A DNA stretch of 47,179 nt from a virus: IMG/VR virus record IMGVR_UViG_3300028794_000002, positions 1 through 47,179 of that record; one strand, given 5' to 3'. This document shows, in pieces, positions 16,597 through 45,357 of this stretch. A program made the translations under genes and the position numbers. The first letter of the stretch is position 1, and each line of letters opens with the position of its first letter. The notes beneath the pieces were generated by a model. The model worked only from the letters and a program-made list of their open reading frames with translations, was not told the DNA's origin and made no database searches.

Positions 16597-16764
16597 ATGA
16601 ACTGGCCCATTGAAGTCCCTGCGGTCCCCGCCGACACCTACGAACCCCACTGCCTGATGGCCTGGGCCGAGCAGGTGGCAGGTGCTGACGACATGGCCTC
16701 CTATTGCGACCCAACGCGCCAGGCTGCGCCGGTTGAGCTTGCTTCTGCTGCGGAGGCTGCATGA
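16597..16764 (+). CDS. Small acidic protein, 55 residues, unknown
   Basis: Too short for most gene callers' thresholds. It begins MNWPIEVPAVPADTYEPHCLMAWAEQVAG and ends AAEAA, and its stop overlaps the methyltransferase start (ATGA). Acidic and Ala-rich; no family recognised. Confidence 0.5.
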   Translation: MNWPIEVPAVPADTYEPHCLMAWAEQVAGADDMASYCDPTRQAAPVELASAAEAA

Positions 16765-17750
16765 GCACCGCTTACTACAACGAGATCGACCCCTATGCAG
16801 CTCAGTGGCTCCGAAACCTCATCGCCGCCGGACACATCGCTGATGGGGTCGTCGACGAGCGAAGCATCGAAGACGTGCTCCCGAGCGACCTTGACGGCTT
16901 CACTCAATGCCACTTCTTCGCCGGCATCGGCGTCTGGAGCCTTGCGCTTCGTCGCGCCGGCTGGGCAGATGACCGACCTGTTTGGACCGGTTCCTGTCCT
17001 TGCCAACCTTTCAGCGCGGCAGGCAAAGGAGCTGGGTTTGCTGACGAGCGGCACCTCTGGCCGGCCTGGCACCACCTCATCAAAGAGTGCAAGCCTGCAG
17101 TCGTCTTTGGAGAGCAGGTTGCGAGCAAGGACGCAGAGCCTTGGCTCGACCTTGTTCAAGATGATCTGGAAGGCATGGGTTACCCCTTCGGGGAGATCCC
17201 GTTCCCGTCTGCGGGCGTCGGTGCTCCGCACATCAGAGACCGCCTGTACTTCGTGGCCGACGCCAAGTGGAACGATTGTGGACGCGAAGCCGCGGCCGCC
17301 AATCATGGTCAGACGCAAGCCAACGGACCCTCAGATTGGGCTGGCCGACGTGGCCGTACACCTGGCGTCTTGGCCGACACCCATGGCGGGCACGCCGGCG
17401 CAGAACGGCAACAACGCAGCGGGCAACAACGACAGCAGCCGCAAGACGGTGGCGCTATGCAGTGGATGGCCGACCCCGACTTCGCAAGACTCTGCGGGGA
17501 GCAGGGCCTACGGCTACGGGGGGCAGACCTTCATGACGCTGACGGACGCAGCCCAGTCGGCGGATTCTGGGCCGATGCTGACTGGATCCCCTGTCGCGAC
17601 GGCAAGTGGCGGCCAGTTGAACCCGGCACATTCCCGCTGGCTCATGGGGCTCCCGCCCGAGTGGGACGCCTGCGCGCCTACGGCAACGCGATCAACGCCG
17701 AAGCGGCGCGCGTCTTCATCGAATCCGTGATGGTGGCCACACATGCGTAA
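16761..17750 (+). CDS. DNA (cytosine-5) methyltransferase
   Basis: The 329-residue enzyme transfers methyl from S-adenosylmethionine to cytosine C5. Motifs in order: FAGIG (53-57), [25 protein letters not shown] (77-101) with catalytic Cys81, FGEQV (117-121) in place of the ENV motif, RDRLYFVA (159-167) and AYGNAI near the C-terminus. The target-recognition part (about 170-270) is variable, Gln- and Arg-rich. Methylation would protect phage DNA from host restriction. A second long frame overlaps its middle and end (16969-17730). The gene is coupled to the small gene before it and followed by a nuclease-like gene one small ORF later. Confidence 0.9.
16969..17730 (+). CDS. Second protein encoded in the +1 frame of the methyltransferase
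   Basis: A 253-codon frame starts [18 protein letters not shown] and lies wholly within the methyltransferase gene. The product is Ser/Thr/Pro-rich and contains [25 protein letters not shown], three WPTP motifs ([24 protein letters not shown]), and [23 protein letters not shown]. From memory, stand-alone or overlapping proteins of this pattern (MTDLFG start, LESRL, repeated WPTP) occur with phage methyltransferases. The two frames cannot be chosen between by composition, and both match family patterns, which argues for true dual coding. The start has only a weak Shine-Dalgarno. Function unknown. Confidence 0.55.
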
Positions 17751-17919
17751 CGCCAACAGAGGCACCGACCCCCCCCTCATCCCCTTCAAGCTGATCGAAG
17801 ACGAGCCCCTCGTCAGTGAGCTTCCGTGGGACGAATGGGATTTGGCATTGGCAAGGCTTGAGGCTGAGACAGCTGACGGCCGAGCCATGCGGCTGGCTCT
17901 CATGGAGATGCCAGCATGA
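17743..17919 (+). CDS. Small acidic protein between methyltransferase and nuclease, 58 residues
   Basis: ATG at 17743 lies in the methyltransferase end and the stop overlaps the next start (ATGA). The product, starting [24 protein letters not shown] and containing LPWDEWDLALARLEAE, is acidic and helical. The position between coupled genes supports it. No family is recognised. Confidence 0.55.
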   Translation: MRNANRGTDPPLIPFKLIEDEPLVSELPWDEWDLALARLEAETADGRAMRLALMEMPA

Positions 17920-18485
17920 CCGAACGGAAGATTGCTCCAAACGTGATGGAGTTCATCGGCCGTGCCGCCGATCTCATCGGTGCATGGGAGCGCGACAGCT
18001 TCTCTCAGGAGATGTTCTGCAACTCCCACGATGTTGGGCTCGAGTCACCACTTGAGGACCTTTTCTGGACGGCGCTACATGCCCTCTGCCGGGTCGCGTA
18101 TGAAGAAGTGAACGCCACTCCGGACTACGACAACATGACCAACACGGCCACGTGGCCATCTGGCGTCTACGTCACGCCGCAGGCGAAGTTCGGCGACTAC
18201 CGGGTTGATTTCCTTGTACAGCGTCGCTTCTATGGCGGCTCAGTGCAGCCGGTGATCGTGGAGCTGGATGGCCACGCTTTCCACGACAAGGACAAGAAGC
18301 AGCGCGCATACGAAAAGGCGCGCGACAGGGCTCTAGTCAAGGCCGGCTGTCGCGTTGTTCATTACACCGGCAGCGAGGTAGTCGCAGATCCGTTCCGCGT
18401 CGCTTGGGAGGTGCTTGACCTTCTGAATGCCATGGGCGGCTTCTCTGAATACAACCCGGCCGATCCGCTGCAGTCTGGCCAATGA
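17916..18485 (+). CDS. DUF559/Vsr-like PD-(D/E)xK nuclease
   Basis: Of 189 residues, 42-50 read LESPLEDLF, a helix typical before this fold; then GDYRVDF (Asp94/Asp98), VELDG (Glu116, Asp118) and HDKDKKQRAYEKARDRALVKAGCRVVHYTG with a C-terminal EV. This is the arrangement of DUF559-type restriction-fold proteins. It follows the C5 methyltransferase with one tiny gene between. It may be a mismatch or restriction-type nuclease, or it may process phage DNA; the sequence does not tell which. Confidence 0.72.
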   Translation: MTERKIAPNVMEFIGRAADLIGAWERDSFSQEMFCNSHDVGLESPLEDLFWTALHALCRVAYEEVNATPDYDNMTNTATWPSGVYVTPQAKFGDYRVDFLVQRRFYGGSVQPVIVELDGHAFHDKDKKQRAYEKARDRALVKAGCRVVHYTGSEVVADPFRVAWEVLDLLNAMGGFSEYNPADPLQSGQ

Positions 18486-36617: not shown

Positions 36618-38800
36618 TGGCTACCGTCCCCACCGTCGACGGACCCAGCGTCACCGCGACGCCGGCACCCAACGCCTACCAGGAGACGCCTCGCGCGCTG
36701 GGTGCGGCGGGCGCTGCCGTGCAACAGCAATTCGGCATGGCCCAGCAGGCGGCCGGGGCTTTCGCGGCGCAGTACAAGCAAGAGCAGGAGCTGGCCGACC
36801 AGGTGCGCGTTGATGATGCGATCAACCAGGCCAAGGAACGCCAGATCGACCTGACCTTCAACAAGGACACGGGCTTCACCAACGTCAAGGGCATCAACGC
36901 CCTGCAGCGCTCGTCCGGCCAGCCTCTTGCCGAGGAATACACCGAGCAGTACAAGAATTCGATCAACGAGATCACCGGCACGCTGGGCAACGACCGCCAG
37001 AAGCGAGCGTTCCAGCTCCGTGCCAACGACATGGTCACCGGCTTCCGTGGCCAGGTCATGGCGCACGAGGGCCAGGAATTCCACGACTACACCGTCAGCG
37101 TGCGCGAAGGGACGATCGCCAACCGCCGACAGGAAATCGGCCTTTTCTACAACGACCCCACGAAGATCGACAACGCACTGGCCTCCATCAATGCCGCGGT
37201 GACCGACCTCGGCCGCAACCTGGGCGGCAAGTCCGCCGAATGGATCGAGGCCCGCTCCCGCAAGGAGCAATCCGACGCGCTCGTTGGGGCCGTGGGTGCT
37301 GCGCTCGAGAAGAACGACCTGATGTACGCGGACGGCCTCATCAAGGCCTACTCCAACCGCATGGATGCCAACGACCTGCTGCGCGTGCGCGGGGCTGTGG
37401 ACAAGCAGATGGATGCCGCGGTCGCAACCAAGGTGGCCACCGATGCCGTGAAGTCGGTTCAGCCTCGCGTGCAGCCCTCTGACTTCGACCGCATCCTCAA
37501 CATCACCATGAACACCGAGAGCGGCGGCAAGCGCTACGGTGCCGATGGCCAGCTGCTGACGAGTTCGGCCGGCGCCAAGGGTGAGATGCAGGTCATGGAT
37601 GGCACCAACCTGGACCCAGGGTTCGGGGTCAAGCCGGCCGACATGAGCGGCACGCCGGAGCAGCAAGCCGGCGAACGTGCTCGTGTGGGGCGTGACTACC
37701 TGTCGGCCATGATCCAGAAGTACGACGGCAACGTGGCGCAGGCCTGGGCGGCATACAACGCAGGTCCTGGCGCGGTCGACAAGGCCAAGGCCGAAGCGGC
37801 TGCCGACGTGAAGGAGATGGCCAAGCGCGGCGAGCGCCCCAGCCCCGATGCGTGGCTGAAGAAGCTGCCCGCCGAGACGCAGGACTACGTTGCCAAGAAC
37901 ACCGCGGCCTACCAGCAGGGTGAAGGCCGTCCTCAGATCCCAACACTGGAGGACGTGCACAACAACGTGCGCGCCCAGCTCGCAGGCACCATGAGCCCGT
38001 CGCGCGTGAAGCTCGCGATCGACGAATCGACCCGCCAGTGGGAAGACCTGCAGAAGGGCATCAAGGCCACGGATGAGGCAGCGACTTCGGCGGCTCAGCA
38101 ATGGCTCGCCAACAACGGCGGCCGGTTCTCCCTGCTGCCCGCAGCCTTGCGCCAGGGCGTTCCGCCGAAGGAACTCGACAACCTCATCAGCTACAGCCAG
38201 AAAGTGGCCAAGGGCGAAGACCGCACCGAGCCCGACTGGTATCAGAAATTCAGCGACCAGAACTACCTCCGTGGTTTGAGCGAAGACCAGTTCTCCGTGC
38301 TCAGCCAGCGCTACCTGAGCGAGCAGGACCGCAAGCACTTCGCCAGCGAGCGCGGCCGGCTGCTGACCGGCGGCCAATCGGACAAGGCGGGCGACCTCAA
38401 CACCGGAGCCGTGAAGTCGGTGCTCGACACCCGCCTGCGCGAACTCCAGATCGACCCGTCCCCGAAGGACGACGGCGGCGCCGACGCAGCGCGCATCGGT
38501 GCGATCCGCCAGTACGTCGACCGCTCCCTGCTGGCGGCCCAGCAGTCGGCCGGCAAGAAGTTCAGCGACGCCGAGATCGCCAAGCACGTCGACGGCATCT
38601 TCGCGCAGACCGACACCGTTCGTACATGGATGGGCTTCTCCAGCGAGAACAAGCCGCTGGTGTCGATGACCGCAAGTGACATCCCATCAGCCATCAAGTC
38701 CCGCCTGAAGGATGACTTCAAGGCCAACGGGATCGACAGCCCGACCGATGCGCAGATCCTTGGCGCCTACCTGCAGGCCAAGGGCCGCAAGAAGAAATGA
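36617..38800 (+). CDS. Internal virion protein with lytic transglycosylase domain
   Basis: The 727-residue protein has a helical front (Ala/Gln-rich, 1-290), a transglycosylase domain (SLT type) at about 295-390 with TESGGKRYG (catalytic Glu301), AGAKGEMQV and AYNAGPG (Tyr380), and a helical C-terminus with a basic end. ATG at 36617 overlaps the previous stop. It probably opens a hole in peptidoglycan during DNA ejection, as gp16 does in T7; here the transglycosylase is in the second ejection protein. Confidence 0.82.
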   Translation: MATVPTVDGPSVTATPAPNAYQETPRALGAAGAAVQQQFGMAQQAAGAFAAQYKQEQELADQVRVDDAINQAKERQIDLTFNKDTGFTNVKGINALQRSSGQPLAEEYTEQYKNSINEITGTLGNDRQKRAFQLRANDMVTGFRGQVMAHEGQEFHDYTVSVREGTIANRRQEIGLFYNDPTKIDNALASINAAVTDLGRNLGGKSAEWIEARSRKEQSDALVGAVGAALEKNDLMYADGLIKAYSNRMDANDLLRVRGAVDKQMDAAVATKVATDAVKSVQPRVQPSDFDRILNITMNTESGGKRYGADGQLLTSSAGAKGEMQVMDGTNLDPGFGVKPADMSGTPEQQAGERARVGRDYLSAMIQKYDGNVAQAWAAYNAGPGAVDKAKAEAAADVKEMAKRGERPSPDAWLKKLPAETQDYVAKNTAAYQQGEGRPQIPTLEDVHNNVRAQLAGTMSPSRVKLAIDESTRQWEDLQKGIKATDEAATSAAQQWLANNGGRFSLLPAALRQGVPPKELDNLISYSQKVAKGEDRTEPDWYQKFSDQNYLRGLSEDQFSVLSQRYLSEQDRKHFASERGRLLTGGQSDKAGDLNTGAVKSVLDTRLRELQIDPSPKDDGGADAARIGAIRQYVDRSLLAAQQSAGKKFSDAEIAKHVDGIFAQTDTVRTWMGFSSENKPLVSMTASDIPSAIKSRLKDDFKANGIDSPTDAQILGAYLQAKGRKKK

Positions 38801-41800
38801 GCGACGAACAACTCGACACGACTGGCGCGGTCGCTGACTTCCTGGGTGGAAGCCTGCCCGACCGCGCACGCGCCAGCATCGCCGGGGCGGTGAACTCCAA
38901 GCCCGACTTCGAGGCCCGCATCCGCAAGATGTCGACCGAGGCCGGCGTTCCGATCTCGACCGCTCGGGAGCTGCCTGACGAGGTGAACCGCAAGGCGAAG
39001 ATGGAGAGCATGGACTTCGACGACCTGTCGAAGAAGTTCCCGTCCACCATGCAGTTCCTGACGCAACAGGACAACGCCAAGATCGCCCACGACGACGTGA
39101 ACAACATGGGGCTGATCGAGGCCTCCGTGAACTCGTTCAAGCGGGGCATCCCGGGGCTGAAGCAGAACCTATCTGCCACGTCACTGCGCGCCAACGCCAA
39201 CATCCTCGGCAACGTTGATGCTATCGAGAAGAAGATGGCGGCCGGCGAGAACGTGCTCGACAGCGAAGACCCGTTCGCCCTCCGTTTCATGACGCCCGAG
39301 CAGCGCAGCGATTTCCGCGCGCAGGCAATCCGTGCGGCCGGTGGTAACGCGACCAGCATCGCCGAGAACCAGGCCATCAAGGACGCCATTCCTCAGCCCG
39401 GGGTGGTCAACCAGGTGATGAGCGCCAAGGGCTGGGGCGAGGCGATCAACGCCTTCATGTCCGACCCCGTGACCTTCGTCGCGTCGATCGGCCCCGAAAG
39501 CCTGGTGCAGAACGCCCCCGGCATGGTGGCTGGTGCCGTCATTCCCGGCGGGGTTGCCGTCAAGGCCGCCACGATGGGTGTGGGGTCTGGTGTCACGGAC
39601 TACGGCAGTAGCCTCCTCGAGGGACTGAGCAAGGCCGGCGTCGACATCAAGGACACCGAAGCCCTGAAGAAGGCTGCGCAGAACCCCAAGCTGATGCAGC
39701 AGGTCGCCGCTCAAGCCATGGCGCATGCGATGGTGGTGGGTACGGTGGACGGTGCCAGCGGCGGCATCGCGGGCAAGCTCGCCATCCCGACCAAGGTCAT
39801 CAAGGGCCCGGTGGCGCGCGAGGCCGCCAACATCGTCACCCAGATGCCAATCCAGGGCGCGATGGGCGCAGCCGGCGAGGCGGGCGGTGAACTGGCTGCA
39901 GGACAACAACTCGACCCCGGCAACATCCTGGCCGAGTTCGTCGGCGAGTCCTTCACGGCACCCGCTGAAGTCGCATCGATGGTGTCGGGCCAGGTGCGCG
40001 AACGGGTCGCCCAGGCGCGCGAGGCCGAGGCGCACGCCAAGTCGCTGGAGGAGCTGTCCAAGTTCTCCGAAGCCAGCAAGGTCAAGGCGCGCGATGCGGA
40101 CACGTTCAAGGCCTTCGTTGAACAGGCCGCCCAGAACGGCGAGACTCCCACAGAGCTTTTCATCGATCCGACCCTCCTGGCCAACAGCCTGAACCAGTCC
40201 GGCATGACCGTGCAGGAGATGCAGGCCCTAGTGCCCGTGGCAATGGGGCAGATTCAGGAGGCGATGGCCAATGGCGTCGACGTGCGCGTGCCGGTGGGCG
40301 AGTTCGCCGCCGTCGGCGAGAAGGTCACGGCTCCGCTGATCGATCACTTCCGCACCAGCGAAGACGCGATGACGCGCGCAGAAGCCACCCTGTACCTGGA
40401 CGAGAAGGGCGCCGAGATCAAGGCGCAAGTCGAAAAGGCGCTCTCGGAGCACGAGGAATCCAGCGCTCACCAGCAGTCGATCAACAACGTGCAGGCCAAT
40501 TTCGAGGCCCAGCTCAACACCGCCAACCGCTTCACGTCGGCCGCGAACAAGGCCTATGCCTCCCTGCTGGCCAACTTCTACGGCGCGCAGGCGCAGCGTC
40601 TCGGCATCACGCCCGAGGAACTGGCGCAGAAGTACGGGCTCAAGGTGCAGGCGCAGAGCGTGGCCGGCGAGCGCACGCTGAATCAGGGATCGCTGGGGGC
40701 TGAGCTTTCGTCGCGCATCGCGGGGGATTTTGACGGCGCTGTCAGGGAATATGACGCCATCCCGGGAACCGATGGCGGCCGAATCCTCAACACTGACGAG
40801 GCGCGCGAACTGTCCGAGGGGTACAGGGCTGACCGAACAAAGTCGGCGGACGTTCACGAAGCCTCGAGCCAGTTCGTTAAAGACCTGTATGCGTCCAAGC
40901 TGGCTCAGCCAACGCCAGTAGGTCGGCAGCCGCTGGTCCTTTTCACGGCCGGCGGCACGGGTGCTGGCAAGTCGACCTCCTTGCAGACAGATCAGGGTAA
41001 GGCTATGTACGAGGCCGCTGAGATGGTCTACGACACCAACATGAACAGCCTGGACTCGGCAGTCAAGAAGATCGATCAGGCGCTGGACGCGGGGCGTTCG
41101 GTCGCCATCCTCTACACCTTCCGCGATCCAGTTGATGCACTGGTCAAGGGCGCCCTTCCGCGTGCAATGCGGATGGGGCGCACCGTTCCGCTGGCTGAGC
41201 ACGCCAAAACCCATGCTGGCGCGTACAAAACGGTTGCCGCGTTACGCGAGAAGTACGCCGATGACCCGCGAGTGGCGGTCCAAGTTGTGGACAATTCACG
41301 AGGGGCCGGCAACGCGCAAGTAACAGAGTTTGACGCTCTGCCAGGGATCGCCGATACTGACCTAGAGGAAACCCTATATGCAAACCTCCAGCAAGAACTC
41401 CAAGCCGGCCGGATCAGCCAACAAGTCTTTGCCGGTACAGCCGGCCTTCGACGTGAAGGCGTGGAGCAAGCAGGCGGCGGAACTGGCAGCAGCGAACCTT
41501 CGCGCGCAGACCAAAAGCAGCTAAACCAGGGCGAAACAGCGCCCCGGGCGCAGATCGCCTTTGCCGACGACATCGCCGGCAGCCCCAGCGTCATCAGCCT
41601 ACTGGCCGGCGCAGACCTCTCCAGCTTCATCCACGAATCGGGCCACTTCTTCCTTGAAGTGCAAACCGACCTCGCCACCAAGATTCAGCAGCAAGCCTCT
41701 GAGGGCGGCAGCCTGAGCCCCGGCGAGCAGGCCGTGGTCGATGACATGAACACGCTGCTGTCGTGGTTCGGCGTCAAGGGCAGCGAGAACCAGACCCCGC

Positions 41801-44800
41801 TCGAAGCCTGGGGCGCCATGTCGCTGGACGAAAAGCGCCAGTACCACGAGCAGTTCGCGCGCGGCTTCGAGGCCTACACCATGGAAGGCAAGGCCCCGAG
41901 CCTCGCGCTTCAAGAGGTGTTCGGCCGCTTCCGCTCCTGGCTGATCCACGTCTACACCACGCTGCGCAATCTCAACGTCACGCTGACCGACGACGTGCGC
42001 CAGGTGATGGGCCGCATGTTGGCCACCGACTTCGCCATTGAAGAGGCCGAGGCCGCACGCAACATGGGCCCGCTGTTCGTCGACGCCAAGAGCGCCGGCA
42101 TGACCATGGAGCAGTTCGACGCCTACCAGGCTACCGCACGCGCTGCGACCGATAAGGCCGCAGCAGAGCTTCAGGTCCGCGGTATGAGGGACATGCAGTG
42201 GGTCAGCCGCGCCAAGGACAAGGCGATCAAGGCTCGCCAGACTGAAGTCGAAGGGCTGCGCCGCGAGGTTCGCCGCGAAGTCACCAGCGAGGTTCTGAGC
42301 CAGGCCGTCTACCGCGCGTGGCAGTTCCTGGCCGGCAAGGGTGAAGCGGTCGACGTCGTGGAGCCCGGCTCCCTGCCCATCGGCGAGATCGACACCATCA
42401 CCCAGAAGGGCAAGCTGCGCACCAGCGCCGTGAAGGAACTCAGCCGCGAACAGTGGGAGGTGCTGTCCAAGCGCCGCATGACCTCGGAAGACAACGGCAT
42501 GCACCCGGAGATCGTGGCCGAGCTGTTCGGCTTCGACAGCGGGGATGCGCTGGTGCAGGCGCTGCTGGAGGCCAAGCCGCCGCGCGAGCAGATCGCCGAT
42601 CTCACCGACATCCGCATGATGGAGAAGTACGGCGACATCGCAAGCCAGGAGGCCCTGAACCGCGCCGCCGACGAAGCCGTGCACAACGAAGCCCGGGCGC
42701 GTTTCATCGCCTCCGAACTGAAAGCCCTGCAGGACGCCAACACAGTCCGCGAAAAGCGCGGCAAGAAGGGCAGCATCGACGTGATGGCCCAGGCCGCCAA
42801 GCAGTACGCCGCCGACATCATCAACCGGCTGAAGGTGCGCGACCTGCGTCCGGCTCAGTACGCCTCTGCCGAGGTGCGCAGTTCCCGCCTCGCCGAGCAG
42901 GCGCTGAAGAAGGGCGAGCTGCCCGAAGCGGCGATGCACAAGCGCAACCAGCTGGTCAACAACTACGCGACGAAGGCGGCCTACAACGCGCAGGACGAGA
43001 TCAAGGCCACGATCAAGTACTTCAAGCGGTTCGACAAGCGCTCGAAGTCGATCGACCCAGCCTACATGGATCAGATTGAGGCCCTGCTCGAGCGCTTCGA
43101 CCTGCGCAACACCTCACTGCGAGCGGTCGACAAACGCAAGTCGCTGGTGGAGTGGGTGGAGTCGCAGCGCGAACAAGGGCTGGAGCCCGACATTCCTCCC
43201 GAGCTGCTGAATGAGGCGATCCGCCAGTCGTACAAAGACATGACGGTTGACGAGCTGCGTGGTCTGCGCGACACCGTGCAGCAGATCGAGCACCTGGGGC
43301 GCCTCAAGAACCAGCTGCTGACGGCCAAGGCCAACAAGGATTTCGAGGCCGTGCGATCGGAGCTCGTGAAGAGCATCGACGAGCATGCCGGATACCGGCA
43401 GGCCGACACGCGCACGCCCACCACGGTGCTTGGCGAGAAGCTGCTCGCGCTGAAGAAGTTCTGGGCCAGCCACATCAAGGCAGCCACCTGGGCGCGCATC
43501 CTCGACGGCGGCAAAGATGGTGGCCCCGTGTGGGAATACCTGATCCGCACCGCCAACGAAGCCGGCGACAACGAAACCGTGGCGCGCGAGAAGGCAACCA
43601 AGGATCTATCCGCCCTCGTGGCGCCGGTCCTGAAGGAAGGCAAGCTCGGCGGCAAGGGCGAGTTCTTCCCGTCGGTGAACCGCAGCATCAACCGCGAAGG
43701 CAAGCTCGCGATCGCACTCAACCTCGGCAACGAGAGCAACATGCAGCGCCTGCTGGGTGGCGAGGGCTGGACCCTGCAGCAGCTGCAGCCGGTGCTGGAC
43801 ACACTCACCGCAGAAGACTGGAAATTCGTGCAGGGCGTCTGGGACTACTTCGAGTCGTTCCGCCCGCAGATCGCCGCCAAGGAGCGCCGTGTTTACGGAG
43901 TCGAGCCGGACTGGATCAAGCCGACCCCGGTGGTCACCAAGTTCGGCACATTGAAGGGCGGCTACTACCCGGTCAAGTACGATCCCCGCGCCAGCGAGCG
44001 CGCCGAGTCGCACGCCGATGCGGAAGAGGCCAAGCGCCAGATGCAAGGTGCCTACACCTCGTCGACCACCCGCCGCTCGTTCACCAAGAGCCGCGCGGAA
44101 GAAGTGAAGGGCCGCCCCCTGCTGTATTCGCTCGACGGCATCTACGGTGGCATCCAGGAGGTGATCCATGACCTGAGCTGGCACGAGTGGCTGATCGACG
44201 CGAACAAGATCCTGCGCAACCAGACGATTTCTACCGCGATCCGAGAGCACTACGGCCCCGAGGTGCACCAGCAGTTCAAGACCTGGACAGAAGACATTGC
44301 GGGCGGCGAGCAAGCAACCCGCGCGGCCGGCGAGAAGGCGCTCGCCTGGGTGCGCCAGGGTGTCAGCATCTCCGGGCTTGGCCTGAACGTCATGAGCGCC
44401 ATGATGCAGCCGCTGGGCATCACGCAGTCGATGGTGCGCATCGGTCCCAAGTGGGTGGGCCGTGGCATCGCCAAGGCCATGGGCTCTCCTGCCGAGACCT
44501 ACCGCGAGATCAACAGCAAGAGCGACTTCATGCGCACCCGCGCGCTGACCCGCATGCGAGAACTCAACGAGTTGCGCAACCAAGTGAAGGGCCAGACCGA
44601 GACGCGCGCCAAGATCGATGCTGCGGCCTACGCGCTGATGCTCCGTGCCCAGCAGCTGGTCGACATCCCGACTTGGTGGGGCGCCTACGAGAAGGCCATC
44701 GCCGAGGGCAACAACGACGCTCGAGCCACGGACCTCGCCGACCAGGCGGTGATCGACGCGCAGGGTTCCGGTGGCACGAAGGACCAGGCCGCGATCGAGC

Positions 44801-45357
44801 GCGGCGGCCCGGCGTTGAAGCTGTTCACGGTTTTCTACAGCTTCATGAACACCGCCTTGAACCTCGGGGCTCAGTCGACCATGACCGAGGCGAGCCGCGC
44901 CAAGCTGGCGGCCAACTACCTCATGCTGTACGTGATCCCGCCGATCCTGGGCTTCATGCTCAAGAACGCGCTAACACCGGGGGATTCTGGTGACGATGAC
45001 GACTGGGGTAAGTTTGCCAACAAGGTTGTGAAGGAAGAACTCGGCTTCCTGTTGGGCCTCTTCTTCGGGCTGCGCGAACTGCAAGGCGCCTGGGATGCGT
45101 TTCAAGGCAAGCCGGGAGGCGACTACTCCGGGCCGGCGGGTGGGCGTCTGATTGGCGACACGCTCAAGCTGACCAAGCAGGTAGGGCAGGGTGAGGCAGA
45201 CGACGGACTGCGTAAGGCCATCATCAACGTGGCCGGCGAGTTGTTCCGCCTTCCATCGGCGCAGATCAACCGAACCATCACAGGCGCAGAGGCCTTGGGC
45301 GAGGGGAAAACACAGAACCCGTCCGCCCTCCTGTTCGGGTTCCAGGAGAAGCGCTGA
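38797..45357 (+). CDS. Giant polyvalent ejection protein with Zeta-toxin-like and zincin domains
   Basis: The 2186-residue protein follows the T7 gp15/gp16-like ejection genes. It is largely helical. Residues about 630-895 are a P-loop domain with GGTGAGKST (719-727), in the style of Zeta-toxin kinases. Residues 930-960 hold a metallopeptidase-type HESGH (946-950). The C-terminal third has a hydrophobic segment (YLMLYVIPPILGFMLKNAL near 2040). Large multi-domain phage proteins combining toxin, protease and other domains are called polyvalent proteins. Codon use in 40680-41520 is less GC-biased than the rest, suggesting an inserted domain. It should enter the host with the DNA. Confidence 0.8.
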   Translation: MSDEQLDTTGAVADFLGGSLPDRARASIAGAVNSKPDFEARIRKMSTEAGVPISTARELPDEVNRKAKMESMDFDDLSKKFPSTMQFLTQQDNAKIAHDDVNNMGLIEASVNSFKRGIPGLKQNLSATSLRANANILGNVDAIEKKMAAGENVLDSEDPFALRFMTPEQRSDFRAQAIRAAGGNATSIAENQAIKDAIPQPGVVNQVMSAKGWGEAINAFMSDPVTFVASIGPESLVQNAPGMVAGAVIPGGVAVKAATMGVGSGVTDYGSSLLEGLSKAGVDIKDTEALKKAAQNPKLMQQVAAQAMAHAMVVGTVDGASGGIAGKLAIPTKVIKGPVAREAANIVTQMPIQGAMGAAGEAGGELAAGQQLDPGNILAEFVGESFTAPAEVASMVSGQVRERVAQAREAEAHAKSLEELSKFSEASKVKARDADTFKAFVEQAAQNGETPTELFIDPTLLANSLNQSGMTVQEMQALVPVAMGQIQEAMANGVDVRVPVGEFAAVGEKVTAPLIDHFRTSEDAMTRAEATLYLDEKGAEIKAQVEKALSEHEESSAHQQSINNVQANFEAQLNTANRFTSAANKAYASLLANFYGAQAQRLGITPEELAQKYGLKVQAQSVAGERTLNQGSLGAELSSRIAGDFDGAVREYDAIPGTDGGRILNTDEARELSEGYRADRTKSADVHEASSQFVKDLYASKLAQPTPVGRQPLVLFTAGGTGAGKSTSLQTDQGKAMYEAAEMVYDTNMNSLDSAVKKIDQALDAGRSVAILYTFRDPVDALVKGALPRAMRMGRTVPLAEHAKTHAGAYKTVAALREKYADDPRVAVQVVDNSRGAGNAQVTEFDALPGIADTDLEETLYANLQQELQAGRISQQVFAGTAGLRREGVEQAGGGTGSSEPSRADQKQLNQGETAPRAQIAFADDIAGSPSVISLLAGADLSSFIHESGHFFLEVQTDLATKIQQQASEGGSLSPGEQAVVDDMNTLLSWFGVKGSENQTPLEAWGAMSLDEKRQYHEQFARGFEAYTMEGKAPSLALQEVFGRFRSWLIHVYTTLRNLNVTLTDDVRQVMGRMLATDFAIEEAEAARNMGPLFVDAKSAGMTMEQFDAYQATARAATDKAAAELQVRGMRDMQWVSRAKDKAIKARQTEVEGLRREVRREVTSEVLSQAVYRAWQFLAGKGEAVDVVEPGSLPIGEIDTITQKGKLRTSAVKELSREQWEVLSKRRMTSEDNGMHPEIVAELFGFDSGDALVQALLEAKPPREQIADLTDIRMMEKYGDIASQEALNRAADEAVHNEARARFIASELKALQDANTVREKRGKKGSIDVMAQAAKQYAADIINRLKVRDLRPAQYASAEVRSSRLAEQALKKGELPEAAMHKRNQLVNNYATKAAYNAQDEIKATIKYFKRFDKRSKSIDPAYMDQIEALLERFDLRNTSLRAVDKRKSLVEWVESQREQGLEPDIPPELLNEAIRQSYKDMTVDELRGLRDTVQQIEHLGRLKNQLLTAKANKDFEAVRSELVKSIDEHAGYRQADTRTPTTVLGEKLLALKKFWASHIKAATWARILDGGKDGGPVWEYLIRTANEAGDNETVAREKATKDLSALVAPVLKEGKLGGKGEFFPSVNRSINREGKLAIALNLGNESNMQRLLGGEGWTLQQLQPVLDTLTAEDWKFVQGVWDYFESFRPQIAAKERRVYGVEPDWIKPTPVVTKFGTLKGGYYPVKYDPRASERAESHADAEEAKRQMQGAYTSSTTRRSFTKSRAEEVKGRPLLYSLDGIYGGIQEVIHDLSWHEWLIDANKILRNQTISTAIREHYGPEVHQQFKTWTEDIAGGEQATRAAGEKALAWVRQGVSISGLGLNVMSAMMQPLGITQSMVRIGPKWVGRGIAKAMGSPAETYREINSKSDFMRTRALTRMRELNELRNQVKGQTETRAKIDAAAYALMLRAQQLVDIPTWWGAYEKAIAEGNNDARATDLADQAVIDAQGSGGTKDQAAIERGGPALKLFTVFYSFMNTALNLGAQSTMTEASRAKLAANYLMLYVIPPILGFMLKNALTPGDSGDDDDWGKFANKVVKEELGFLLGLFFGLRELQGAWDAFQGKPGGDYSGPAGGRLIGDTLKLTKQVGQGEADDGLRKAIINVAGELFRLPSAQINRTITGAEALGEGKTQNPSALLFGFQEKR

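Follow-up and report, generated by a model that had tools for sequence, protein, structure and literature searches.

A methyltransferase gene of phages with a second coding frame: evidence for a conserved overlap and a putative two-polypeptide C5 enzyme

Two reading frames at one methyltransferase locus

The window, meaning the whole stretch of DNA that was analysed, is the viral contig IMGVR_UViG_3300028794_000002 with a length of 47,179 bases, and its gene content, which includes integrase, NinG and RecT-like genes, is consistent with a temperate phage. The outer frame of the locus under study (16761-17750, + strand), here named M, encodes a C5-cytosine methyltransferase (MTase) of 329 amino acids with motifs I-VIII and X, and its ATG at 16761 is preceded by a strong Shine-Dalgarno sequence. 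M matches phrog_363 over nearly its full length (E 2e-89) and PF00145 over residues 76-168 only (E 3.2e-13), while residues 71-166, which cover motifs IV-VIII, align to M.HhaI. The assignment as a C5-cytosine MTase follows from the PF00145 match, the catalytic PC motif and motif VIII.

The inner protein, here named X, is read in the +1 frame relative to M and lies fully within the M open reading frame (ORF): from the ATG of MTDLFG it has 253 codons plus the stop (16969-17730, + strand), and it carries WPTP cassettes and motif IX. It matches the phrog_1008 profile (E 2.7e-32), so that the two frames belong to conserved families, as the first-pass annotation had supposed; the frame, its ATG and its length are as described there, and the patterned protein segments named there are present in X. 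The frame is open further upstream than this ATG, giving a longest ATG-started ORF of 311 amino acids (16795-17730, + strand), in which constraint is slight up to about 16974. Within X, structure prediction is best for residues 38-85 (17080-17223, + strand), a helix and a β-hairpin with AF2 pLDDT values of about 66-82 in ten-residue blocks, which overlap M between the end of the motif IV segment and motif VIII. The cassettes of X (17254-17550, + strand, with starts at 17254, 17371 and 17467) lie over the recognition region of M. A gene for a DUF559/REase_MTES_1575-like nuclease (17916-18485, + strand) is located 165 bases 3' of the MTase ORF.

Both frames are under protein-level selection

For the analysis of coding capacity, 80 viral loci were fetched with M as the query, X playing no part in their selection, and at 80/80 of them X has a tblastn match in the +1 frame. 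The first-pass annotation had named an X frame broken beside an intact MTase as the case that would speak against its claim of a truly coding frame; among these 80 loci no such case was found. The claim is borne out by the stop codons, which were counted between motif I and a point 30 codons short of the M stop and compared with synonymous-codon shuffles within each gene: the +1 frame contains 5 stops in 67 nonredundant genes selected by their MTase, where 132 are expected, and 64/67 genes are free of any +1 stop compared with 8.7 expected (the loci were collected by similarity and are thus a non-random sample, and the kinship among sequences means that the shuffle z-scores overstate independence). 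The +2 frame of the same genes has 789 stops against 702 expected, and the antisense frames are near expectation. All five +1 stops are confined to three loci (L027, L048 and L072) in which M extends well beyond the end of X, and they appear to be natural ends of X.

The translation of the +1 frame is conserved with an identity of 0.63-0.82 in the catalytic and C-terminal parts, compared with 0.30-0.40 for the shuffle null, and 5' of about 17000 it exceeds the null only slightly, to a degree resembling that of the +2 frame. In the recognition region, the identity of X exceeds that of M over most of its length, and the M frame reaches 0.84-0.88 in its last quarter. Synonymous constraint on M, one of the checks proposed at the outset, is in excess between 17007 and about 17680 (+ strand), as expected of dual coding; it rises abruptly at 17007, is weaker in the variable recognition part and fades near 17680. 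The bases CCT TTC at 17007 are invariant in 71/71 genes, as the invariant Leu-Ser of X requires.

For the three codon positions of M, 73 non-overlapping pairs of relatives give substitution rates of.072/.052/.275 ahead of the overlap,.104/.058/.120 in the catalytic part of the overlap,.387/.267/.301 in its recognition part and.103/.051/.097 in its C-terminal part. The excess at third positions is thus lost within the overlap, where in the recognition part the third position of M is even slower than the first, and this matches the prediction of dual coding. Both frames are therefore under protein-level selection across the family.

Distribution of the overlap

A tblastn search with X matches 184 phage records, most of them in features annotated as methyltransferase or hypothetical protein, in line with the statement of the first-pass annotation that segments of this kind recur in phage proteins near MTases. 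The nested arrangement is present in hundreds of phages and prophages and is usually annotated as one protein. It occurs in phage, prophage and plasmid records with hosts of several phyla and GC contents of 42-70%, and relatives are found in the E. coli Bas-series phages Bas70, Bas73 and Bas74. The overlap has already been annotated in K1ind3, K1G, PhiXhv-5, fKuEco01 and Sitara, the inner ORF being labelled 'Mte8-like' in K1ind3 and 'g59 internal gene' in Sitara. PHROG 1008 and the proteins with these two labels are the same protein family as X, with existing labels giving only 'DNA methyltransferase' or 'Mte8-like' as its function. No study of the overlap was found in the literature searched, which mostly leaves aside subscription papers and is thus weak evidence of novelty. 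Among double-stranded DNA phages and bacteria there are, to our knowledge, few documented cases of long out-of-frame overlaps with demonstrable selection.

A scan of a genome collection with the X alignment yielded 80 bacterial loci, of which 80/80 also match M one frame back; both frames are broken at two of them (L221, L224) and two are truncated by contig ends (L194, L242). The locus from a Consotaella genome (L228) has one in-frame stop in the MTase at about 2878-2880 with X intact, the sole case in the 80 bacterial loci. In a draw of 398 genomes from one phylum, phrog_1008 matches occur in 27, and wherever both profiles match at loci in those 27 genomes, X is +1 to M. This relation holds for distant MTases that score only about 46-100 bits with the M profile. 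X without M was not found among the 80 bacterial loci or the phrog_1008 loci of the 398-genome draw.

Two subfamilies of such distant MTases, B and C, were analysed separately. In subfamily B, motif IV lies in the frame preceding that of X at 66/68 loci and a single +1 stop is observed against 140 expected; in subfamily C, motif IV lies in the preceding frame at 80/80 loci, with an identity in the cassette region of 0.88-0.98 for X compared with 0.65-0.82 for M. A search with one distant X gave matches in 642 phage records, 403 of them from Mycobacterium phages, counted at E values up to 1 with the weakest matches included unvetted. For a distant X (L269), only two viral loci were found.

How the inner protein is translated

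In the relatives of the window locus, an X-frame ATG is situated 44 codons upstream of the X core in 58/71 cases, where synonymous redraw gives an expectation of 25 +/- 4, and 29 of the 71 combine an ATG with a strong Shine-Dalgarno sequence at the X start, compared with 0.5 +/- 0.8 expected. The Shine-Dalgarno sequence of X is written with AGG arginine codons of M, present at that codon in 24/71 genes, while AGG makes up 1% of the arginine codons elsewhere in the N-terminal part of M. At the usual site or four codons on, a start is present in 172/187 genes.

The window is an exception to this pattern. Its copy of the internal Shine-Dalgarno sequence and start ATG of the family (16857-16875, + strand; GAGCGAAGC ... 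ACG at 16873-16875) is degenerate, with GCG four codons on and a Shine-Dalgarno energy of -2.2. Among the remaining X starts of the window, the ATG at 16969 ranks first by Shine-Dalgarno energy (-4.0, with short spacing), although this value is still weak. The same position retains its ATG in four other members that lack both usual starts, and in another (L009) an X-frame stop upstream leaves late starts only. The MTDLFG ATG at 16969 is thus probably the start of X in the window; the first-pass annotation proposed a plausible fallback here, but the usual start of the family is 32 codons upstream. For the phage of the window, in which the canonical start has been lost, we infer that X is translated.

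Whether X is made at all, and in which form, can be read in other ways. High GC lengthens chance frames, and the expectation for subfamily C is only 13.9 stops even under shuffling, so that the open +1 frame might be a by-product of base composition and of the amino-acid constraint on the MTase, with X never translated. This is extremely improbable: for the family it is contradicted by the stop counts (5 against 132, and 1 against 140 in subfamily B), the synonymous constraint, the codon-position rates and the subfamilies. The +1 frame is open even in genomes of 42-47% GC, the internal start signal is conserved in relatives, and in much of the recognition region the identity of X exceeds that of M, reaching 0.98 against 0.69 in subfamily C. 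A narrower possibility is that X is losing its function in the phage of the window alone, as the ACG and GCG at the conserved and alternative starts and the weak signal at 16969 would allow. We regard this as unlikely, since X is intact to its stop, including the cassettes and motif IX, and since other members without the usual starts keep the 16969-position ATG or, as in L009, have late starts only. The missing start could also mean that ribosomes shift by +1 out of the M frame, producing a chimaera of the catalytic half with X, and single-frame enzymes with the same order of parts do exist. Programmed frameshifting is nevertheless disfavoured because the internal start is conserved, relatives carrying a dedicated Shine-Dalgarno sequence and ATG upstream of the X core, and the invariant CCT TTC at 17007 is accounted for by the Leu-Ser of X alone, with no slippery site turning up in unsystematic searching; this makes a fusion by frameshift very unlikely.

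Motifs IX and X and the relation to single-chain enzymes

A profile with a motif IX part and a motif X part was built from the C-terminal 93 residues of a fused, single-frame protein (L454). The motif IX part matches the X of the window at 17611-17664 (+ strand) with 10.5 bits, where the best of 300 shuffles reaches 5.7, and it matches 99% of 92 X proteins. Of 180 M proteins with a C-terminal best hit, 166 match the motif X part, at low bits, and the match of the window M (17661-17708, + strand) is at noise level. Taken over the family, these profile matches place motif IX on X and motif X on M.

In the fused protein itself, the PF00145 match spans residues 1-347, so that Pfam takes the two halves together as a complete C5-MTase, and the phrog_1008 match spans residues 177-361 (E 6e-65). 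This shows that single-chain C5-MTases have a homologue of X as their C-terminal half. The AF2 model of the fused protein (pTM 0.77, with high confidence over the motif IX-X end) matches M.HhaI with an E value of 1e-14. The AF2 model of X alone is of low confidence; Foldseek of this model against the PDB gave no match (best E 0.25), an X-profile sequence search of the PDB gave no hits, and nothing convincing was found for X in Pfam, NCBIfam and PADLOC. The first-pass annotation had the same DNA coding for two proteins, one of unknown role, on the condition that both frames are conserved families; the dual coding stands, and the role is not wholly unknown given motif IX and the homology to fused C5-MTases.

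WPTP cassettes

Units resembling [WLFYM]xTP are carried by 410 X-type ORFs in numbers of 1-7, these counts being approximate as the pattern also catches a TPSGR hairpin in the N-terminal region of X. Clustering at 60% identity yields 105 cassette types (at 45%, almost everything was merged). One unit of the window, 29 residues long, is found at six array positions and is followed by six different types, and one cassette type is common to distant MTase subfamilies. This suggests that the cassettes are exchangeable modules which, at the position of the target-recognition domain, may serve sequence recognition.

Nested, split and fused layouts

Three layouts were seen; a regex classifier of them misses many loci and mislabels some. 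The nested layout is found in the window, epsilon15, BcepC6B, Paenibacillus phage Sitara, Lacticaseibacillus phage R9.1 and Acinetobacter phage ABMM1. In the split layout of Noelle, Lilbooboo and Mori, the catalytic ORF extends only a little past motif VIII, and the +1 frame then encodes the cassettes together with motifs IX and X. The fused layout, exemplified by DillTech15 gp66 and its relatives, has a single frame: these actinophage C5-MTases consist of a catalytic half, xTP cassettes, motif IX and motif X in the same order as in the window, but as one protein in one frame where the window uses two.

Two further loci deserve mention. In Mycobacterium phage Jarcob (L443, 1311-2481), gp69/gp70 resemble a fused-type MTase with a frame change before motif VIII, an arrangement different from the true split layout of Noelle. 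In Komagataeibacter phage phiKX1 (L172, 2245-2763), a zinc-finger/HNH-like ORF lies between the end of X and the part coding for motif X; flanked by both MTase parts, it resembles a homing-endonuclease insertion.

Comparison with known two-chain and overlapping systems

The small chain of M.EcoHK31I (YGGCCR) is read from another frame within the large gene. Motifs I-VIII and X lie on the large chain of this enzyme and motif IX alone on the small one (PMC3404938), a distribution like that of M and X, the two being likened by published motif layout. In the window, too, a small gene lies within a large gene in another frame, motif IX is on the smaller chain X, and motifs I-VIII and X are on the large chain, although motif X is weak in the window M. 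By contrast, the predicted recognition domain of M.EcoHK31I is placed on its large chain (review PMC3404938), whereas selection and the split layouts in the window family point to the small-chain frame. X is also set apart from M.EcoHK31I by its exchangeable cassette array, and M.EcoHK31I belongs to a restriction-modification system, while the window locus has no established partner restriction enzyme.

M.AquI (CYCGRG) likewise has two chains, divided between motifs VIII and IX (PMC3404938), which resembles the split actinophage layout. Its small chain carries motifs IX and X together, as does the +1 ORF of Noelle, Lilbooboo and Mori; in the window, motif IX is the last motif of X, and motif X is kept on M. 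ShiLan-type phage methylase genes likewise harbour a second, out-of-frame protein, the HNH of some members, which is an inserted homing endonuclease (PMC11855218). X differs in being present throughout its family, and its interpretation as an HNH insertion was rejected as 0/92 X proteins have a Pfam HNH match.

A proposed two-polypeptide methyltransferase

We consider it likely that the locus encodes a two-polypeptide C5-MTase in overlapping frames, similar to M.EcoHK31I. M would contribute motif X as well as the catalytic domain with its motifs I-VIII, while X would supply motif IX, preceded by the array of WPTP cassettes, about 30-40 residues each, in place of a target-recognition domain. 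Translation of X would begin at an internal start of its own on the mRNA of M, and the two chains would assemble into an enzyme whose methylation of DNA presumably shields the phage against restriction by the host. The physical assembly of M and X, the need for both chains and target recognition by the cassettes are what we infer from motif order, homology and layout.

As the last quarter of M is well conserved, M might be complete by itself. X could then be a real but separate protein, an overprinted regulator, DNA-binding or anti-restriction protein beside a monomeric MTase, and the independent start of X in relatives would suit such a role. Against this, motif IX and the family profile of X recur in the C-terminal half of fused C5-MTases, and X and M keep consistent company at the loci examined. 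In the split actinophages, moreover, little follows motif VIII in the catalytic ORF, so that the half in the X frame must complete the enzyme. A separate X is for these reasons improbable, if less so than a frameshift product, and the two-polypeptide enzyme is preferred.

A broader reading, which we favour by a small measure, extends the two-polypeptide enzyme to a very widespread family of phage MTases with the recognition half in the +1 frame. The exchangeable WPTP cassettes would be target-recognition modules, each swap rewriting two proteins, and many annotated phage cytosine MTases would be half-enzymes lacking their specificity subunit. The overlap would be older than the divergence of the subfamilies and related to the split and fused forms. 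If X is the specificity subunit, annotation as a single ORF hides half of the enzyme, a protein made from the annotated ORF without its partner would be inactive or mis-specific, and claims on methylation and anti-restriction in such phages need revisiting. It would also make a general question testable, namely how two proteins evolve on one stretch of DNA if one is a catalytic enzyme and the other a specificity array that shuffles.

Elsewhere in the window, a protein of 2186 residues (38797-45357, + strand) matches phrog_9880, a family of unknown function, over nearly its full length.
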